This document shows, in pieces, positions 3,039 through 32,758 of a stretch of 64,000 bases of DNA. Under the pieces are notes generated by a model that did not search any database, was not told where the DNA came from, and saw only the letters and a program-made list of their open reading frames with translations. The stretch's first letter is position 1, and each line of letters begins with the position of its first letter. Source of the DNA: Anaerolinea thermophila (GTDB lineage: Bacteria; Chloroflexota; Anaerolineae; Anaerolineales; Anaerolineaceae); the NCBI RefSeq assembly GCF_020723905.1, contig NZ_DYHZ01000005.1, positions 186,001 through 250,000 on the forward strand, written 5' to 3'. The position numbers and the translations under genes were made by a program.

Positions 3039-4838
3039 ATGAGCGCACACATTCGTAACTTTTGCATAATTGCTCATGTTGATCACGGTAAATCAACCTT
3101 GGCAGATCGCCTGTTGCAATTAACAGGGACGATTTCAGATCGAAATATGACCGAACAGGTTCTGGATAGCATGGACCTGGAGCGGGAAAAGGGCGTAACG
3201 ATTAAGGCTTCTGCCGTACGAATGATGTACACCGCTAAAGATGGGCAAACTTATGAATTAAATCTAATTGATACCCCCGGTCATGTTGATTTTAATTATG
3301 AAGTCAGCCGGGCACTGGCTGCCTGCGAAGGTGCATTGCTGGTCGTAGATGCCACTCAAGGAATTGAAGCCCAAACCCTGGCAAATCTGTATTTAGCATT
3401 GGAGTCAGATTTAACTATCATTCCAGTTATTAACAAAATTGATTTAGTTTCGGCTCGTCCAGATGAAGTGGCTGAAGAACTGGAAAACTTGCTGGGTATT
3501 CCCGCTCATCAAATCCTGCGCATTTCAGCAAAAGAAGGAATCAATGTAGATCAGGTTCTTGAAGCCATTGTGCAGTATGTTCCACCTCCCAGAGGAGACA
3601 TCCAATCCCCATTACGTGCGTTGATTTTTGACTCACATTATGACTCCTATAAGGGAGTGGTTGCATATGTGCGTGTAGTCGAAGGAGTGGTGAAGCCCAG
3701 TGATATGTTGCGATTGATGTCCACCGGGGTAGATGTCAAGCCCATAGAAATAGGCTACTTTGCTCCTGAACTCAAACCAACCGATCATCTTGAAGCGGGT
3801 GATGTGGGCTATATTGCCACAGGATTAAAAACGGTGCGAGAGTGCCGGGTAGGTGACACGATTACACACAGCCAACGTCCTGCTGATGAACCATTGCCTG
3901 GTTACCAGCATGCCAAGCCAATGGTTTTTGCAGGGATTTACCCGACAGAAGGGGAGGATTATCCCAACTTAAGGGATGCCCTGGAAAAACTGCAGTTGAA
4001 CGACGCATCCCTGGTGTTTGAACCTGAAACTTCCCAGGCTCTAAATTTTGGCTTCCGTTGCGGATTTTTAGGCCTTTTTCACATGGAAATTATTCAGGAG
4101 CGTCTGGAGCGGGAATACGATTTGGATATTGTTGTTACCGCACCATCTGTGGAATATGAAGTTGTGATGCGCAGTGGTGAGGTAATTCGGATTGATTCTC
4201 CCGCTCAGTTACCCGATGAAGGACTAATTGAGGAAATTCGTGAGCCCTGGATGCTGTTGCAAATTTTCAGCCCCACCGAGTTTTATGGGGCGATTATGGA
4301 TCTGGTTACGAAACGCAGAGGTATTTTCAAGGATCAGGAATATCCTGCCACAAATCGGGTGCAACTGAACTTTGAAATCCCTTTATCCGAAATCATCGTA
4401 GATTTTTTTGATGAACTGAAATCTCGAACGCGCGGCTTCGCTTCCATGGATTATCATTTCCTTGATTACCGCCCTGGCAATCTTGTCAAACTGGAAGTTC
4501 TGGTAAATGGCGAGCCGGTTGATGCATTAGCCACTATTGTTCATCGAGAAGAGGCTTATCACAAGGGACAAGCCCTGGTGAGCAAATTGAAGGAACTCAT
4601 CCCTCGCCAGTTGTTTGATGTTGCTATTCAAGCCTCTGCTTCAGGAAGAGTGATCTCCCGGGCAAATGTTAAAGCCTTGAGGAAAGATGTTTTGGCAAAG
4701 TGTTATGGAGGAGACATAACCAGAAAGAAGAAATTGCTGGAGAAACAGAAAAAAGGCAAGAAACGCATGAAGATGGTGGGAATGGTTGAAATTCCCCAGG
4801 ATGCCTTTTTTGCTGTATTGAGATTGAGGGAAGAGTGA
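3039..4838 (+). CDS. lepA: elongation factor 4 (LepA) GTPase
   Basis: 599 residues from the ATG at 3039, exactly the usual LepA length. It begins [20 protein letters not shown], the family N-terminus with the P-loop AHVDHGKST at 12-20. Further GTPase motifs are DTPGH (G3) and NKID (G4), and the C-terminus has the LepA-specific basic [16 protein letters not shown] segment. LepA acts on stalled or slow ribosomes by back-translocation. The start is supported by GGAAG at 3025-3029 and by TATAAT at 3011; the ATG at 3006 and GTG at 3030 would only add a few unconserved residues. Its stop overlaps the next start by four bases (GTGA), so translation is likely coupled. Confidence 0.97.
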
Positions 4839-26529: not shown

Positions 26530-27306
26530 TTAATCTGGAACCTGACCGTATGCATAAAAAGTGGGCACAAATGAAATGCGCCGACCGGATATGAAATGCC
26601 GGAAGTCACGTTGGCGATAAGACTGAACCTCGTCCATTGAAAGGTAATAAAGAAGATCCTTCTCAATCGTTTCCCATTCTTGCTCAAATTGTGTTGGTTC
26701 TTGTGGAAAATTCCACTCGCCGCTGTACACTCCTGTAGTGATGTGTGTAAGTCCACATTTGCTAAACAATGCCGATAATTGCCTTCCCATGGTTGGGATA
26801 ATACCTCTTTGAACCAGTGATTGTGTCTGCATCTTTCCGATGTCAGCCGTATCTTGTGGAAAGTCAATCCTTGCTTCGTAATCAGGTTCTGCAATGGCAA
26901 CAATCCACCCTGAAGGCATGGTGACTCGAATCATTTCCTTCAATGCGTCTTCAGGGGATTTTAACCAGAGAAAGACAAAGTGAGTCATTACGCAGTGGAA
27001 ATACTTTGAAGGGAATGGGAGATGATATATATCTGCCTGAGCGTGAAAATAAACAGCAGGATGCTGATAATGGCTATAACGTACCATATCAAAGTCAATA
27101 TCTATAGAGTGAACTTGAGCCCCATAGGAAATGGTTATATCTTCACTCAGGACCCCAGTTCCACAGCCGGCATCCAGAATACGAAAATGTTCTGGAAAAC
27201 GATGACGGAAAAAGAAATCCCGGAAAGGACGCGTCCATTTCGATTGACGCTGGAACAAACGGTCAAGATATTCTATTGACGATTTTTCGTCTCTCAATGG
27301 CGGCAT
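26530..27306 (-). CDS. class I SAM-dependent methyltransferase, cassette member
   Basis: 258 residues. Motif I RILDAGCGTGVLSEDI is near residue 43, followed by HSIDIDFDMVRYS (motif II) and AQADIYHLPFPSKYFHCVMTHFVFLWL (motif III/IV region), VTMPSGWIVAIAEPDYEARID. The substrate is unknown. Its start overlaps the end of the degenerate radical SAM gene by 44 bases, so the two are translationally coupled and probably work in one pathway. This makes it a candidate methylating enzyme or chaperone-like partner in the Cys-Ala tail system, by inference. HemW lies 44 bases downstream. Confidence 0.8.
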   Translation of the reverse strand: MPPLRDEKSSIEYLDRLFQRQSKWTRPFRDFFFRHRFPEHFRILDAGCGTGVLSEDITISYGAQVHSIDIDFDMVRYSHYQHPAVYFHAQADIYHLPFPSKYFHCVMTHFVFLWLKSPEDALKEMIRVTMPSGWIVAIAEPDYEARIDFPQDTADIGKMQTQSLVQRGIIPTMGRQLSALFSKCGLTHITTGVYSGEWNFPQEPTQFEQEWETIEKDLLYYLSMDEVQSYRQRDFRHFISGRRISFVPTFYAYGQVPD

Positions 27307-28450
27307 TCCAAATGGTTTCCCAGGAGTCTTTTAGAAAGTTTCCTAAAACTTGAAATTCGCCTTGTGAAAGCAATACATCTCCGTCCGGTTCTACGTAAAG
27401 CGATGAATATCCGGTGATCGTTTCTTTGTTCTCTTCAGATAGCGCAATCTCCAGTGCAACCGGATGGAGACGAGAATAAGGGACAGGGATATCCCAAATC
27501 AGGGAAATTCCCATTTCAGCAATTTTATCTCTCGCCCAAAAGACTTCGTCCCTGAAATCCAGGGAATTTGTGGATAGAGATAAGTTTCGGATGCCTTTCT
27601 GTTGAAGATGTTCGAACAAGTCTATGTATTCATGGCGTTTCTGATGAGTAATAGTAATGTGGACAGCTATGGAAATATCCTGCCTGATCAGGATATCCAG
27701 TTTTTCCCAGATCTCTTGATCACCTTCCTGGAAAATGATCATGATGTGATCCAATCCGCAATCATTAATCAGGTGTTGAGCGGTTTGCTCTGTCAGAGAG
27801 TAACCTGTAGAGAGCAAACCCGTCACCATTCCTAATTTACTGGCATACAGGATCAATTCCGGGCATTCTTCTCGCAGCAAAGGTTCACCACCGGTAAAAA
27901 TGACATGAGGTATTCCTGCATCCCATGCTTTTTTCAGAATAGTTTTCCATTCTTCGGCACGAAGATCAGTCTTAACCCGTTCCACCGGCGCAGAACGAAG
28001 ATAAGAAAGATCGGGATGACGATAGGTCAATGCACAATCTAGCCGATAAGGAGCAGACATTGCTCCGGTGTTTACTTCTACTCTTTCAATCCCCAGATAA
28101 GCAACAGGATCCACATCGGGAAGATTTAAAAGATTTTCTAGTTGACCGGTAAAGGCATTAAGATCAGCCGCTGCTTGTTCTCTGGAAATCCCATATCGCT
28201 TTTGTATCGTTTTAATGATTTGATCGTCTGTCCGATTTTCAAGTAAATGGTAAGTCAGTTCTGTCGCGGTTTGATTTAAGTGTAAAACAATGCTTCCATT
28301 CAGGATCATGATTCCAGTCCCATTTTTTTCTACCCTGAGGTGGACCTTGTTGGGAATGGAAGATTGTAATCTGAGAGTCCCACTGTAATTCCCTGCGGGG
28401 ATGGGCTGATAGGCAGGAAAAAATCGGTTGAAAATTTCAGGAAAGTTCAT
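27263..28450 (-). CDS. degenerate radical SAM paralogue with PqqD-like N-domain, all cluster cysteines lost
   Basis: 395 residues. It aligns over its length with the neighbouring radical SAM enzyme: a PqqD-like domain (about 30-110), then LTYRHPDLSYLR where the neighbour has ITYRCNNQCAHCYN. The three ligand cysteines are replaced by His145, Ser149 and Arg152 without any gap. The SAM-binding FTGGEP (185-190) is kept. The SPASM part (SSLYVEPDGDVLLSQGEF, LGNFLKDSWETIWN) has no cysteine and the protein ends before the usual CGGGCP. It cannot bind the radical SAM cluster in the normal way, so I read it as a pseudoenzyme, perhaps a substrate-binding partner. It overlaps the active copy by 14 bases and the methyltransferase by 44. 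Confidence 0.85.
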   Translation of the reverse strand: MNFPEIFNRFFPAYQPIPAGNYSGTLRLQSSIPNKVHLRVEKNGTGIMILNGSIVLHLNQTATELTYHLLENRTDDQIIKTIQKRYGISREQAAADLNAFTGQLENLLNLPDVDPVAYLGIERVEVNTGAMSAPYRLDCALTYRHPDLSYLRSAPVERVKTDLRAEEWKTILKKAWDAGIPHVIFTGGEPLLREECPELILYASKLGMVTGLLSTGYSLTEQTAQHLINDCGLDHIMIIFQEGDQEIWEKLDILIRQDISIAVHITITHQKRHEYIDLFEHLQQKGIRNLSLSTNSLDFRDEVFWARDKIAEMGISLIWDIPVPYSRLHPVALEIALSEENKETITGYSSLYVEPDGDVLLSQGEFQVLGNFLKDSWETIWNAAIERRKIVNRIS

Positions 28451-29852
28451 ATGATGTCCTCTCAGAACAGGAGATTCTGGTTATTTCATCAAGGATTGGC
28501 GAAGGTTTGAAAGAAGGGTCGAGTCCCCTTGCTAAAGGACATCCTCCACCGCAAACATCCAGAATTTGGCATTGTTTGCATTCTTCTGAAATTATTTGAC
28601 GATTTCGAATGGAAACGGCAAGAGGATGGTTCCAGATGGATTCCCATGACTGGGATAATAAGTTCCCCAGTGGAGAATAATAAGATTGACATGGGATGAC
28701 ATCGCCATTGGGCTCTATCGCCATTGCATACAGTGCAGCAGTACAGCCTTTAATTCCCAGTCCCATCTCTAAGGGGTTGAAATCACAATAATGGGTAGGA
28801 GTGTACCAGATCAACTTTTGCCCCGTTTGTTGAATCGCCTGGTTGACATGTTCCAGAAGTTCAGGCAGTCTGGATTCGGGTAGTCCTGTCCGGGCAGATT
28901 TTCCATGTCCCGAGTATATGAGAGCGTTCATTCCGATAGTTGGAACTCCTAACTCATGCAGGAACTGGATTGTATCCAGAATGAAAGGGGAATTTTGCTG
29001 TAATAAAGTTGTATTGGTCATTACGTATAAAGAAGACTTCAAAGCATTACGAATACCTTCTACTGTCAGCCGCCACGCCCCTCGATGAGCAACCATTTCA
29101 TCATGGATGAATTCAATGTGAGACTCAAGAGTAATTTGAACATGATCTAATCCAGCATCAACCAACTGTTTGAGATAATCGGGGTTAGCAAGGCGCATGC
29201 CGTTTGTGTTTAACCCGGTGATCATACCGGTCTTCTCGGCAAATTCTATTAATTCTGGCAAATCGTTCCTGAGGGTGGGTTCTCCACCGGTAAACACCAG
29301 ATGAGGAATACCAATATCCCATAATTTTTGAATGATAGATTTCCATTTTTCTGTTGATAGTTCCTGAAAATCCCGAGGACGCGCATTATAGCAATGTGCG
29401 CACTGGTTATTGCACCGGTAGGTTATTGCCAGATCCATACGATAGGGAGCAAGGGGTACAGAACGAAAAGGTAAAATTGGCTCTAGTTCCAACTCACATA
29501 TTGGACAATGGCTTAAAGGACTGGTCAGAACCTGGATTTGTGAAGCGATTTCTTTGTAATCTTTCTCTACAGTCACTTTGTCCATTGAGTACCAGTCTGC
29601 AAGTATCTCAATAGCCTTTTCTGAAGAATTGCCTTCCAGTGTCAGATAACACATCAGTGTGGCGCTTGAATTGAGATGAAAGATTCGGTTGGCGTTTACC
29701 ACTAAAATACCACTCCTGTCCGGATTTATCCGCAGGTGTATGCGGATCCTGGAATTCCCATCGTTTTTTTGATAATGATAAAGTCCAGGATCTGGCAGGG
29801 GTGAGGTAACCTTACCAGCAAATATTCGTTTCAATAAACCGGGAATAGCCAT
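28437..29852 (-). CDS. radical SAM/SPASM peptide-modifying-type enzyme with PqqD-like (RRE) N-domain
   Basis: 471 residues from the ATG at 29852, three bases after the stop of the Cys-Ala tail gene; a TTG at 29855 would add one residue. Residues about 30-110 are a PqqD-like domain, the peptide-recognition element of RiPP enzymes. C147, C151 and C154 (YRCNNQCAHCYN) bind the SAM cluster and FTGGEP (187-192) binds SAM. The C-terminal SPASM region has GCTAALYAMAIEPNGDVIPC and ECKQCQILDVCGGGCP for auxiliary clusters. Related enzymes (AlbA, PqqE, heme D1 biosynthesis) act on peptides or cofactors. The likely substrate is the tail of the gene it directly follows, by inference. Confidence 0.9.
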   Translation of the reverse strand: MAIPGLLKRIFAGKVTSPLPDPGLYHYQKNDGNSRIRIHLRINPDRSGILVVNANRIFHLNSSATLMCYLTLEGNSSEKAIEILADWYSMDKVTVEKDYKEIASQIQVLTSPLSHCPICELELEPILPFRSVPLAPYRMDLAITYRCNNQCAHCYNARPRDFQELSTEKWKSIIQKLWDIGIPHLVFTGGEPTLRNDLPELIEFAEKTGMITGLNTNGMRLANPDYLKQLVDAGLDHVQITLESHIEFIHDEMVAHRGAWRLTVEGIRNALKSSLYVMTNTTLLQQNSPFILDTIQFLHELGVPTIGMNALIYSGHGKSARTGLPESRLPELLEHVNQAIQQTGQKLIWYTPTHYCDFNPLEMGLGIKGCTAALYAMAIEPNGDVIPCQSYYSPLGNLLSQSWESIWNHPLAVSIRNRQIISEECKQCQILDVCGGGCPLARGLDPSFKPSPILDEITRISCSERTSYELS

Positions 29853-29855
29853 CAA

Positions 29856-31550
29856 TTACCTTCCTCCACCAGCACAGGCGCAGGCGCAGCCTGCACATGC
29901 ACAGGCACAGGCGCAGGCACAAGAACTTCCCCCGCCGCCACTTCTACCTCCCGATGATGATGAAGTTGTGGATTTGGGAACAGGATTGGTTTTTTCTGTA
30001 ATCCCGGAGGTGAATGATGTCACATCCCCAATTACTGAGGAAGCAAAGGATTGTACCCCGCCCACAATTGAAGCCGCAAAATCTGCTCCAGGAAGTGAAG
30101 GGAGAGAGGATCTTCCAGGTGCCTGCCCAACCTGAGAGGGTTTAGGTGAAACTGTTGAAGCCTTTCCAAACCCCGGATCGTATCTTCCCCACCATGAAGG
30201 AACGATAACTGGCCGGTTTGTAAAGACCTCGCGAGAACGGTCTTCAAATCTTCGATCGAGCATGGTCCAATCCATGGCTTTTTCGAATAAATCGCTTTGG
30301 ACTTCAGGAGTGTCTGCGGCTTCCACCTGTTCCCAGGCTCGTCGAATGATGTCCTGGTAGTATTCGATGGTTTCTTTTCTGCTGAAACCTCTCATCTTCT
30401 CGCTGACTTCTTTGACGAGATTAACCATCAAATCTTGAAGCATTTTTCTTTTGGTGCTTAATTTTTCTTGTTTCATTGCTTCAAGGAAATCTTTCTCATA
30501 ACTGCGCAGTTCTACGTTTTCAGGAACTGGTAGGACCTTAATTTTTAAGGGATTTCTGGAAATGACCTCAGCGGCTCCTTTGCGAACAACCGAGAAGAGG
30601 ATCATGGTAAGGACCTTTTCCAGAGGCTGTTCCATCACAATTGCTGCTTCAACAGCCGTGAGGCCGCGCTTAATTCCGTTCCCTTCAATAGAGATCTTGG
30701 GAGGAAGGTATTGCAATTTTCGTTTCTTTTCTGCTTGAGAAACTCCCCAAATGACGAGTACAAAGAACCCGATGAAAGTAATTAAAATGATAGAAAAGCA
30801 GATTGCTCCTCCAGCCTCCTCGCTAATGACAGGCTCAGATACCAGCGCGGTACTATCAACCAGCCTGGCTGGAAATGCTGCCCCAAAAATATATTGGGTA
30901 TAACTGTTGGCTTGAGAGGATTTCCAGCGGTAGAAGACGTTTCCATTTTGATCAAATCCGCTTTCAGGTTGAGGATTGTCGGGCCATCCCTTTGGAGTAA
31001 ACCATCTTGGTTCTTCAGGCTTCAATCCTGGGGGCAGATGCAGAGTAACGCTGAAATTGGTGCTGCCAATAACGTACTCTTTACCAAAGGAGTTCGGCGA
31101 AAATTGAAAACTGGCATAGGCTTCGCCCACATCTTTTACCCGATTGGTTTTATACAACATGTTATAGATTTCGGGAATCCATACCTGTACTGTGCCACTT
31201 TCCCCGGGTTGGATGATTTGTTCAGGACTTAATTCCAGTGCGATTCCTGGAGACACATAGGGAGATTCCACAATTCGAAAAATAGGAGCACCATTGATCT
31301 GCGCTGTAATGTTAGACAATGCGTAATCATTTGTGGGAAGGCCGATATCTATTGCATCAATAGGCGCTCCAAAAGGCGAATTCTTAAATACAATCACATA
31401 TTGTATTGAAACAACCCCGTTTGGAGAGACATATAAATCAACAATGTTTTCTGTTACCTCAAACTGCAAAGATTGTGCATTTCCTTGAGTATTAAGAAAA
31501 AGTAAAAATAGAAGGAATAAAAGACTCGCACGATAGAAAAGTCTTTTCAT
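29856..31550 (-). CDS. DUF2207-like exported membrane protein with C-terminal Cys-Ala repeat tail
   Basis: 564 residues from the ATG at 31550, which has AAAGGA upstream and gives a clean signal peptide (MKRLFYRASLLFLLFLLFL). Residues about 30-225 are an extracytoplasmic beta-rich domain, then one transmembrane segment (AICFSIILITFIGFFVLVIWG) and a cytoplasmic region of about 300 residues. The general plan is that of DUF2207 proteins. The end is remarkable: a Ser/Gly-rich stretch, then five Cys-Ala pairs, a Gly, three more Cys-Ala pairs and GGGR. DUF2207 relatives usually end in Gly/Ser without cysteine. Cys and Ala codons are mixed, so it is not a simple DNA repeat. A radical SAM gene follows at once. 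Confidence 0.85.
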   Translation of the reverse strand: MKRLFYRASLLFLLFLLFLNTQGNAQSLQFEVTENIVDLYVSPNGVVSIQYVIVFKNSPFGAPIDAIDIGLPTNDYALSNITAQINGAPIFRIVESPYVSPGIALELSPEQIIQPGESGTVQVWIPEIYNMLYKTNRVKDVGEAYASFQFSPNSFGKEYVIGSTNFSVTLHLPPGLKPEEPRWFTPKGWPDNPQPESGFDQNGNVFYRWKSSQANSYTQYIFGAAFPARLVDSTALVSEPVISEEAGGAICFSIILITFIGFFVLVIWGVSQAEKKRKLQYLPPKISIEGNGIKRGLTAVEAAIVMEQPLEKVLTMILFSVVRKGAAEVISRNPLKIKVLPVPENVELRSYEKDFLEAMKQEKLSTKRKMLQDLMVNLVKEVSEKMRGFSRKETIEYYQDIIRRAWEQVEAADTPEVQSDLFEKAMDWTMLDRRFEDRSREVFTNRPVIVPSWWGRYDPGFGKASTVSPKPSQVGQAPGRSSLPSLPGADFAASIVGGVQSFASSVIGDVTSFTSGITEKTNPVPKSTTSSSSGGRSGGGGSSCACACACACAGCACACAGGGR

Positions 31551-31575
31551 ATTTTCATCCTTTGGCATTCTCTTT

Positions 31576-31929
31576 TTACCATTTTGGGTCTTCGGTCAAT
31601 TGATATACGGTTGAACAGTAAGGACAGGTGACAACTGGCGCCCCATTAATCACCTTGATATTCTCTGCGGAAAGGGTTCCGCCACACGATCGACACTTTA
31701 TTGTGTCAAGATTGACATTTGCTGGCAAGTCTAACTTTAAGGTGATATTTGAATCTGCTGTGGTCTTGGGCTTTTTAGATGTAAAGTAAAAAAGAACCAG
31801 TCCTATACTAACTGTAATGATTCCAATGACGATCCATCCTGGCTGTCCTTGAGCGCCAAAAGCCCCCCATATGAACAACACGCCAAAGAAAATCAATATG
31901 CTTGCGACAATATAGCCTATTGTTCTCAT
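31576..31929 (-). CDS. small membrane protein with C-terminal zinc ribbon
   Basis: 117 residues. Two transmembrane helices (about 3-25 and 32-50) are followed by a charged linker and a C4 zinc ribbon, CRSCGG then CPYC (about 79-105). The cytoplasmic ribbon could bind metal or a partner. I do not recognise a named family. The ATG at 31929 has AGGAG 9 bases upstream; the ATG at 31935 is only 3 bases from it. It is the first gene behind the promoter at 31951-31980 and lies 25 bases ahead of the Cys-Ala tail gene, so it belongs to that unit. Confidence 0.75.
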   Translation of the reverse strand: MRTIGYIVASILIFFGVLFIWGAFGAQGQPGWIVIGIITVSIGLVLFYFTSKKPKTTADSNITLKLDLPANVNLDTIKCRSCGGTLSAENIKVINGAPVVTCPYCSTVYQLTEDPKW

Positions 31930-31950
31930 TTGCATTTTCTCCTAAGACAG

Positions 31951-32056: not shown

Positions 32057-32722
32057 TTATTTTTCTACAAAAATTTCAATGTAGAAAGTGCATTTTACCG
32101 TTGACCCGGCCGATAGTGTCCAATATGTGATCTGATAGCCGGCTTTTTCCGGCGCTTTCATGGTAATGGTTATGTCAATTGTACCGTCAGGGGGAACGGA
32201 CTTGGGCAAATCGATAATATCGTTGCTTGTATGCATTGGTACGCCACCCTTAAATCGTACATCAATGCTGTCTGAACGCCATGGTTCCGTGCTGGTGTTC
32301 TGTAAAGTCCACGAAACTCTAAATGTTTCGCCTGCCTTAATGGTTTTCCCATCTTCTGGACTCTGTGCAAGCAATTTACATTTACCTTCCAATGGTAAAC
32401 GTGCGTTGGTGGGATAGACTGTCTTTAGCATGGGTGTGGGTGATGGTAAGACAAAAGGAGTATTTGTCGGTGAAGGGGTAAAGGTGGGGCGCCTGGTAAT
32501 CTCACTGAGAGCCGTGGGCTGTGCGGTTGGTGTCCATGTTGGTGGTAGTGCTTTGGGGGTAGAGGTGAAAGTTGGGACAAAAATTGTAGGTACAGGAGGG
32601 GGTGGGGGAAACGGATTCATGAAAAGGTATGGATTTTGGAATAACAAAAGGACCACAATAGCCACCAACACAATACCAATGAGCAGGATAATTGATAGAA
32701 AGTCCCAGATGGATTGTTTCAT
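32057..32722 (-). CDS. membrane-anchored protein with Pro/Thr linker and NBR1-type Ig-like domain
   Basis: 221 residues from the ATG at 32722, preceded by AAAGGA; the TTG at 32737 is rejected. A short cytoplasmic start is followed by one transmembrane segment (about 11-31), then a Pro/Thr/Ser-rich linker (PTFTPSPTNTPF and similar) to about 110. The C-terminal 110 residues are an Ig-like domain of the NBR1 central type, with GETFRVSWTLQNTSTEPW, the S-P-P-DGTIDITITMKAPEKAG segment and YWTLSAGS. This fold is known from autophagy receptors and is frequent in Chloroflexi exported proteins. It is outside the cell and its role is unknown, probably adhesion or carbohydrate contact. Confidence 0.8.
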   Translation of the reverse strand: MKQSIWDFLSIILLIGIVLVAIVVLLLFQNPYLFMNPFPPPPPVPTIFVPTFTSTPKALPPTWTPTAQPTALSEITRRPTFTPSPTNTPFVLPSPTPMLKTVYPTNARLPLEGKCKLLAQSPEDGKTIKAGETFRVSWTLQNTSTEPWRSDSIDVRFKGGVPMHTSNDIIDLPKSVPPDGTIDITITMKAPEKAGYQITYWTLSAGSTVKCTFYIEIFVEK

Positions 32723-32758
32723 GTCCTTTGTCCTCAATTGTTATGATGTATAAAGTCC

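Follow-up and report, generated by a model that had tools for sequence, protein, structure and literature searches.

A near-invariant Cys-Ala tail on a membrane protein and the radical SAM/SPASM enzyme encoded beside it: a probable dedicated modification system in Anaerolinea thermophila

The window analysed here, a stretch of 64,000 nucleotides from a 3.29-Mb Anaerolinea thermophila genome, contains a minus-strand gene cluster (Table 1) in which a membrane protein ending in alternating Cys and Ala residues (the CA tail, or tail A) is encoded directly ahead of RS1, a radical S-adenosylmethionine (SAM) enzyme with a SPASM domain and an RRE-like N-terminal domain. The tail is strictly conserved and is coupled to the enzyme in bacteria and archaea. 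An earlier sequence-only reading of the window had proposed the tail as the dedicated substrate of its neighbour. Co-occurrence, adjacency across phyla and the matching of enzyme clades to tail types, all computational, support this proposal, and the CA tail can with good confidence be regarded as the substrate of RS1. The cluster as a whole would probably form a dedicated tail-modification system, in which RS1 modifies a cytoplasmic CA tail with the help of a catalytically dead paralogue (PRS), thioethers being the likeliest chemistry.

A pattern scan of named genomes for (CA)3-X-(CA)3 returned at least 119 stretches; the scan presets this core and leaves the Gly, the GGGR and the stop free. 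The tail is present in at least 118 of these, including a Bathyarchaeota locus (L110) recognized by eye, in which the tail ...CACACASCACACACVSCACACAGGGVGR is missed by the strict regular expression and RS1 adjoins; this locus lies outside the 100 loci testable for adjacency. Another locus (L161), missed by the tail profile, carries CACACACASCACACAGGGR followed by a stop, and one of the stretches, a frame of 38 amino acids in Mediterranea (L075), looks like a chance match. Among the matches listed, the tail occurs under at least 14 bacterial and at least six archaeal phylum-level labels, which partly derive from metagenome bins and can be mislabelled. Chloroflexota provide 81 of the 117 labelled loci in this listing. 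The other bacterial labels in it are Fermentibacterota, Aminicenantes, Planctomycetota, Bacillota, Coatesiibacteriota, Acidobacteriota, Edwardsiibacteriota, Armatimonadota, Zixiibacteriota, Actinomycetota, Myxococcota, Hydrogenedentota and Chrysiogenota, and the archaeal ones are Hodarchaeota, Promethearchaeota, Heimdallarchaeota, Sigynarchaeota, Hermodarchaeota and Bathyarchaeota (L110). Named strains with both tail and enzyme are Bellilinea caldifistulae GOMI-1, Ornatilinea apprima P3M-1, Levilinea saccharolytica KIBI-1 and Leptolinea sp. HRD-7.

At least 114 different tails show the strict form with a stop immediately behind the Arg, and they fall into six architectures. Among the matches listed, (CA)4-G-(CA)3-GGGR is the commonest (66 of 114), followed by the block lengths 3/3 (n = 17), 3/4 (n = 15), 5/3 (n = 14), 2/4 (n = 1) and 4/3 with five Gly (n = 1). 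These distinct tails draw on both Cys codons and on the full sets of Ala and Arg codons. Across 80 aligned tails, mean entropy reaches 1.40 bits at third codon positions against 0.05 at first and 0.0 at second positions; selection therefore acts on the protein. The claim that the tail is kept at the protein level, drawn originally from the mixed codons in the window (TGT/TGC, GCC/GCA/GCT), thus holds. Residues 554-557 and 561-570 of the tail protein are invariant across 62 aligned members, 61 of which came from the tail pattern, so that only GGGR among the invariant residues is free of scan selection. A whole-protein search found the complete tail with its stop in all 30 best-matching loci (own genome included), and matches to the tail protein at E<=0.001, some weak or fragmentary, in 49 of 61 near genomes (own included). 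The codon-position entropy and the full tails in the 30 best loci rule out a chance repeat as the origin of the tail. A separate arrangement is seen in Clostridia, Bacillota and Hungatella hathewayi (L115, L130, L145), where the CA tail extends beyond GGGR into AGCxxKDFY and the enzyme lies upstream of the tail gene.

Enzymes of the RS family were called by hidden Markov models built in this analysis. The sequence-only reading had suggested counting how often enzyme and tail genes adjoin, and among the matches listed 93 of the 100 testable loci have an RS-family gene adjacent to the tail gene. Where at least 600 bases are available, it is on the expected side in 85 of 91 loci of tail subtype A3, in 6 of 7 of subtype A4 and in both clostridial loci, again among the matches listed; some A4 cases rest on a dead paralogue or a cut gene. 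Five of the 85 A3 loci (L086, L092, L095, L149 and L184) have only the dead paralogue on that side; they either contain an active-type gene at another position or belong to genomes with a strong RS1 match outside the locus. The 15 listed loci without an RS-family gene in the stretch examined all come from genomes that have one, the genome match being partial for L088, L153 and L170; in Hungatella the gene directly adjoins the tail gene beyond the first stretch examined. L086, L095 and L184 combine an A3 tail and PRS with an enzyme on the opposite strand that is A4-type (L095) or A4-like by score, and also contain a paralogue of the tail protein without a CA tail; perhaps an enzyme replacement took place here.

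The coupling extends beyond adjacency. A class survey covered 298 genomes drawn from a larger group, with thresholds set after two score groups had been seen (E<=1e-20 for the tail-A protein, >=350 bits for RS1). All 39 genomes with a tail-A protein carry RS1, which occurs in 43 genomes in total (Fisher p 1e-44 over the 298 genomes, uncorrected for kinship). Two genomes, G158 and G231, have the tail gene and RS1 on different contigs, which indicates that the link survives loss of adjacency.

The same survey contains a second enzyme clade, RS-B, with about 33% identity to RS1. Loci from 21 of the 34 RS-B genomes listed were examined, and in 16 of these 21 a membrane protein with a CHSAC-repeat tail (tail B) is encoded immediately upstream of RS-B. 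In L189 the CHSAC-tail protein is on another contig, and L190, L191, L196 and L204 lie at contig ends. The survey's own count of RS-B without tail B (13) is too high, since the tail-A protein served as the query for tail B; direct reading finds tail B in G095, G301, G307 and G331. The carriers of both tails are homologous (profile match 99.8%, E 3e-30, residues 8-442), with the tails outside the alignment. The CA and CHSAC tails are unlike each other, and in both nearly every Cys follows Ala. In one genome (G331) the two systems coexist, and each enzyme adjoins its own tail (L244, L195). In one RS-B locus, the enzyme gene is followed by a protein of about 398 amino acids without a Pfam match (L193:2079-3272) and then by a zinc-ribbon protein (3287-3787).

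Tail type was mapped on a quick enzyme tree of 102 rows chosen from 215, which leaves out the PRS of A4 loci and carries a long-branch warning for the clostridial and B clades. For eight loci (L208, L213, L215, L216, L217, L225, L245 and L246), the tail type was set by hand from another contig of the same genome. Tail type changes four times with a minimum of three, a count that excludes six rows without a known tail and 17 PRS rows and lacks a separate shuffled control. The sequence that does not fit is L095, whose A4-clade enzyme lies near an A3 tail. All seven groups together require 11 changes compared to a shuffled mean of 50.0, and none of 200 shuffles was as low. Because tail type follows enzyme clade, even inside a single genome, the substrate is very probably the tail: such matching points to an enzyme-substrate relation, as neighbourhood alone would not predict it.

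RS1 has all the cluster cysteines. Its core cluster motif CxxxCxxC reads CNNQCAHC (Pfam Radical_SAM, E 1.2e-25). The SPASM signature has the form CX9-15GX4C ... CX2CX5CX3C, and RS1 shows C371-X12-G384-X4-C389 and C426/429/435/439 (CX2CX5CX3C), plus C357 (Pfam SPASM, E 8.9e-11). Each of the seven SPASM cysteines is kept in 140 to 143 of 144 active-type enzymes; these were chosen by CxxxCxxC, so that their 144/144 carriage of that motif adds nothing. The PqqD-like domain scores 17.1 in RS1, below the Pfam cutoff of 23.4, and above it in PRS (35.2) and RS-B (28.8). The peptide-recognition domain announced for RS1 is nonetheless supported by the predicted structure. The RS1 model (pLDDT 87.9) best matches SkfB (Z 30.0, rmsd 3.8, 346/383 residues), followed by SuiB (Z 28.5, 382/425 residues), CteB (Z 25.4) and PqqE (Z 25.0); the alignments with SkfB and SuiB, which start at residues 37 and 28, respectively, include the RRE. 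No signal helix is seen in the model. Among 25 of the 77 matched NCBIfam models that were listed, RS1 reaches no cutoff (best 132 bits of the 381 needed). An anti-phage viperin was considered and rejected: the pVip profile matches the radical SAM core only (57 bits over 111/262 positions). In L166:3369-5004, the RS1 match spans two open frames (183 and 501 bits) split by a stop, a broken gene or an assembly error.

The carrier is predicted (pLDDT 85.8, pTM 0.48) to comprise a signal helix (residues 5-25), an extracytoplasmic beta domain (36-233), a transmembrane helix (252-287), a cytoplasmic helical domain (305-470) and a disordered C-terminus (542-570). Across the 62 members, the 20 residues after the last internal hydrophobic stretch have a mean net charge of +3.4 compared to -1.2 for those before it, and the charge is higher after than before in 54 of the 62. 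Because it follows an internal transmembrane helix and the positive-inside rule points the same way, the tail is predicted to be cytoplasmic, most likely on the side where RS1 is expected. The surface patch envisaged by the sequence-only reading thereby gives way, on this prediction, to a cytoplasmic location. The DUF2207-like character that it gave the carrier stays below the Pfam threshold: at E<=0.05 the tail protein matches no Pfam family, and the carriers do not reach the gathering scores of PF09972 and PF20990, which match 3 and 4 of the 62 members below threshold. TIGR04222 gives no match to the window tail protein at E<=1 and weak matches to 8 of 62 tail-A members at E<=1 (best 7.8e-5); one tail-B carrier scores 26.7 bits, the NCBIfam cutoff being 43. 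No NCBIfam model names the tail protein in a scan of the window proteins and members, and a sequence search of solved structures gave a single match (E 0.28). The beta domain (residues 32-235) resembles the OST1/ribophorin I domain of oligosaccharyltransferase (6ezn_A; Z 16.8, rmsd 2.7, 184 residues, 11% identity), with M1 aminopeptidase domains ranking below it (Z about 12.6). The carrier is also found in Asgard archaea (L083, L084, L121).

In the proposed mechanism, the membrane protein would present a flexible Cys-Ala tail in the cytoplasm, where RS1 would modify it by radical SAM/SPASM chemistry with the aid of its RRE domain. In Chloroflexota, the dead PRS would probably recognize or hold the substrate, and a methyltransferase may often add or complete a modification. 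The product would most likely be a rigid, protected or metal-binding cytoplasmic structure. Thioethers are the likeliest chemistry, as both tail types share Cys and RS1 finds its best structural match in a sactisynthase; sulfur-to-carbon bridges on the tail have about an even chance. The identity of Ala as the partner falls a little short of that. As a matter of geometry and not of evidence, a hairpin at the central Gly would let every Cys of (CA)3-G-(CA)3 face an Ala, giving as many as six nested links. There is precedent for Ala as an acceptor: PMC8172795 describes a Cys5-Ala12 thioether in the double hairpin of ruminococcin C1.

RS1 could instead modify the tail by, for example, epimerization, C-C bond formation, reactions at the Ala backbone or Cys conversion, and SPASM/RRE enzymes do carry out several reactions. 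SuiB forms a C-C bond and matches the RS1 model nearly as well as SkfB does, and a methyltransferase is often present. Such chemistry without thioether bridges is rather unlikely, with both tail types built on Cys and a sactisynthase as the best structural match. It is improbable that the tail serves as an unmodified metal or Fe-S ligand beside a radical SAM gene with another substrate. Six to eight closely spaced Cys make a plausible metal site and a zinc-ribbon protein is encoded next door, but this explanation leaves unaccounted for both the two enzyme clades that track two unrelated tails on homologous carriers and the co-occurrence of unlinked tail and enzyme genes. Least credible is a bacteriocin-type ribosomally synthesized and post-translationally modified peptide (RiPP) that is cleaved from the carrier and released, as the maturase-like enzyme and the clostridial continuation beyond GGGR might suggest, given that the carrier has signal and transmembrane helices, the tail is predicted cytoplasmic and near-invariant across phyla, and the eight window proteins scanned include neither an exporter nor a protease.

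Several observations weigh against a dedicated modification of the tail by RS1. The refuting case named by the sequence-only reading, a radical SAM gene without a tail gene nearby, does occur. In G158, G231, G072 and G118 the tail gene is on another contig of the same genome, and in 4 of the 43 RS1 genomes (G065, G066, G186 and G215; 68-93% complete) no tail protein was found, even by profile. G250 has PRS without RS1 or a tail protein. For L137, where the sequence ends 180 bases past the tail, a PRS-like match (36%, residues 95-410) is all that the genome search yields. The pairing of enzyme with tail subtype is not strict either, given the A4 or A4-like enzymes near A3 tails in L086, L095 and L184. 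No product is known, and most substrates of known RRE-radical SAM-SPASM enzymes are short precursor peptides. Of the 114 distinct tails among the matches listed, 81 have a first CA block that exceeds the second in length, so not every Cys can pair across the Gly. Finally, the topology is a prediction: a simple scale finds exactly two hydrophobic stretches in 43 of 62 members, more than two in 15 and one in 4, and the tail itself (548-568) scores as hydrophobic in the window protein.

Table 1. Features of the proposed tail-modification gene cluster and its downstream neighbour in the window.
Feature	Coordinates	Strand	Remark
ZNR, small membrane protein with C-terminal zinc ribbon	31576..31935	-	First gene of unit
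Tail protein, 570 amino acids, ends ...SSCACACACACAGCACACAGGGR	29856..31568	-	Open reading frame reading, predicted model
Cys-Ala tail, residues 550-570, (CA)5-G-(CA)3-GGGR, proposed substrate	29859..29921	-	Alignment
RS1, radical SAM/SPASM enzyme, RRE-like N-terminal domain, 472 amino acids from TTG	28437..29855	-	
PRS, RS1 paralogue without CxxxCxxC, with PqqD/RRE domain and GGE motif	27263..28450	-	
SAM-dependent methyltransferase (Methyltransf_11)	26530..27306	-	Common, not constant member
HemW	26521-25304		Downstream of methyltransferase gene

Re-reading the open reading frames reproduced the gene order, strand and upstream zinc-ribbon protein given before, as well as the overlaps of 14 bases between RS1 and PRS and 44 bases between PRS and the methyltransferase. 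The ATG of RS1 lies three bases past the tail-gene stop, as noted, and the TTG start gives 29855. Two details need correction. The promoter ahead of ZNR is one 10/12 consensus match (31994-31966), and such matches number 14 against a shuffle mean of 14.0. PRS, described as cysteine-less, has three Cys and lacks CxxxCxxC. A terminator-like hairpin of 10 pairs (32033-32010) separates the preceding gene from the cluster; the protein at 32057-32737, directly ahead of the cluster, has an NBR1-type Ig-like domain (PF16158, E 5.7e-17).

The PRS set comprises 55 sequences chosen by lack of CxxxCxxC. In these, Cys is outside the three commonest residues at all three core positions; 52 to 53 retain GGE, and hardly any of the SPASM cysteines remain. 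On the enzyme tree, PRS forms a single clade that branches among the RS1 of Anaerolineae. Among the matches listed, 33 of the 35 Chloroflexota A3 loci that extend for at least 3600 bases downstream contain it, versus 0 of 10 others, which marks it as an accessory. A4 loci have a different dead paralogue, without the core region, in which CX2CX5CX3C is kept in 13 or 14 of 14. A methyltransferase on the same strand and in range is found in 24 of 37 A3 loci with at least 4200 bases downstream and in 9 of 15 A4 loci, and thus is common but perhaps not required. A ZNR homologue lies directly upstream of the tail gene in 65 of the 71 listed A3 loci with at least 500 upstream bases. Additional proteins occur in some loci: one of about 346 amino acids with a C-terminal hydrophobic stretch between RS1 and PRS (L235:6825-7863, L237:6551-7592), and in two A4 loci one that carries Cys in its C-terminus (CQLCPRE.CPGRR) and stands between RS1 and the dead paralogue (L210:3340-4048, L209:4318-5161). 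In the G250 locus (L247), PRS and a weak methyltransferase match remain, perhaps in a decaying locus.

The sequence-only reading knew of no characterised system of this form. In agreement, no description of the CA-tail/RS1 system and no paper linking DUF2207 with radical SAM was found in searches of the open-licence literature of PubMed Central, which leaves most subscription papers and bioRxiv outside; PMC12710340 likewise offered nothing relevant. DUF2207 proteins (PF09972, PF20990) are membrane proteins with extracytoplasmic and cytoplasmic parts and a low-complexity C-terminus, and the carrier is like them in general plan, without reaching gathering scores. The closest published proposal found is that of PMC12452194, in which subsets of TIGR04222 membrane proteins have Cys tails modified by multinuclear non-haem iron-dependent oxidative (MNIO) enzymes. 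Here too, a membrane protein with a low-complexity C-terminal Cys tail is encoded beside a peptide-modifying enzyme, with a weak sequence relation between the carriers. However, the enzyme class differs, the tail is predicted here to be cytoplasmic whereas the tails in PMC12452194 are inferred to be periplasmic, and the Ser/Gly-rich TIGR04222 tails with interspersed Cys contrast with the fixed motif found here. No MNIO gene is present among the eight window proteins scanned, and no search aimed at MNIO was made. One speculative possibility, which we rate as doubtful, is an ancient cross-domain modification, a Cys-Ala thioether ladder on a cytoplasmic tail in bacteria and Asgard archaea, with the carrier family as a general scaffold for CA, CHSA and, distantly, MNIO-linked TIGR04222 tails.

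With regard to the enzyme, the system resembles the sactipeptide and related RiPP maturases SkfB and CteB, a group to which AlbA and RumMC also belong: a radical SAM enzyme with SPASM and N-terminal RRE domains, and a Cys-rich substrate encoded next door. Unlike sactipeptide and ranthipeptide systems, there is no short leader-core precursor; the carrier is a membrane protein of 570 amino acids, the putative substrate is a C-terminal tail consisting only of Cys, Ala and Gly before the final Arg, and a dead paralogue stands alongside. QhpD and similar radical SAM enzymes install crosslinks within a larger protein instead of a leader-core peptide, and the QhpD substrate is a different one, without a Cys-Ala repeat. 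Most known examples of radical RiPP-type chemistry come from small, variable natural products. A motif fixed nearly to the letter on a membrane protein, under at least 14 bacterial and at least six archaeal labels, points to a conserved cellular role and not to a toxin or antibiotic. Two enzyme clades with matching tails on one carrier family also constitute a natural system for studying substrate choice. What would be new here is RRE-radical SAM-SPASM maturation, a known class of chemistry, on a new kind of substrate.

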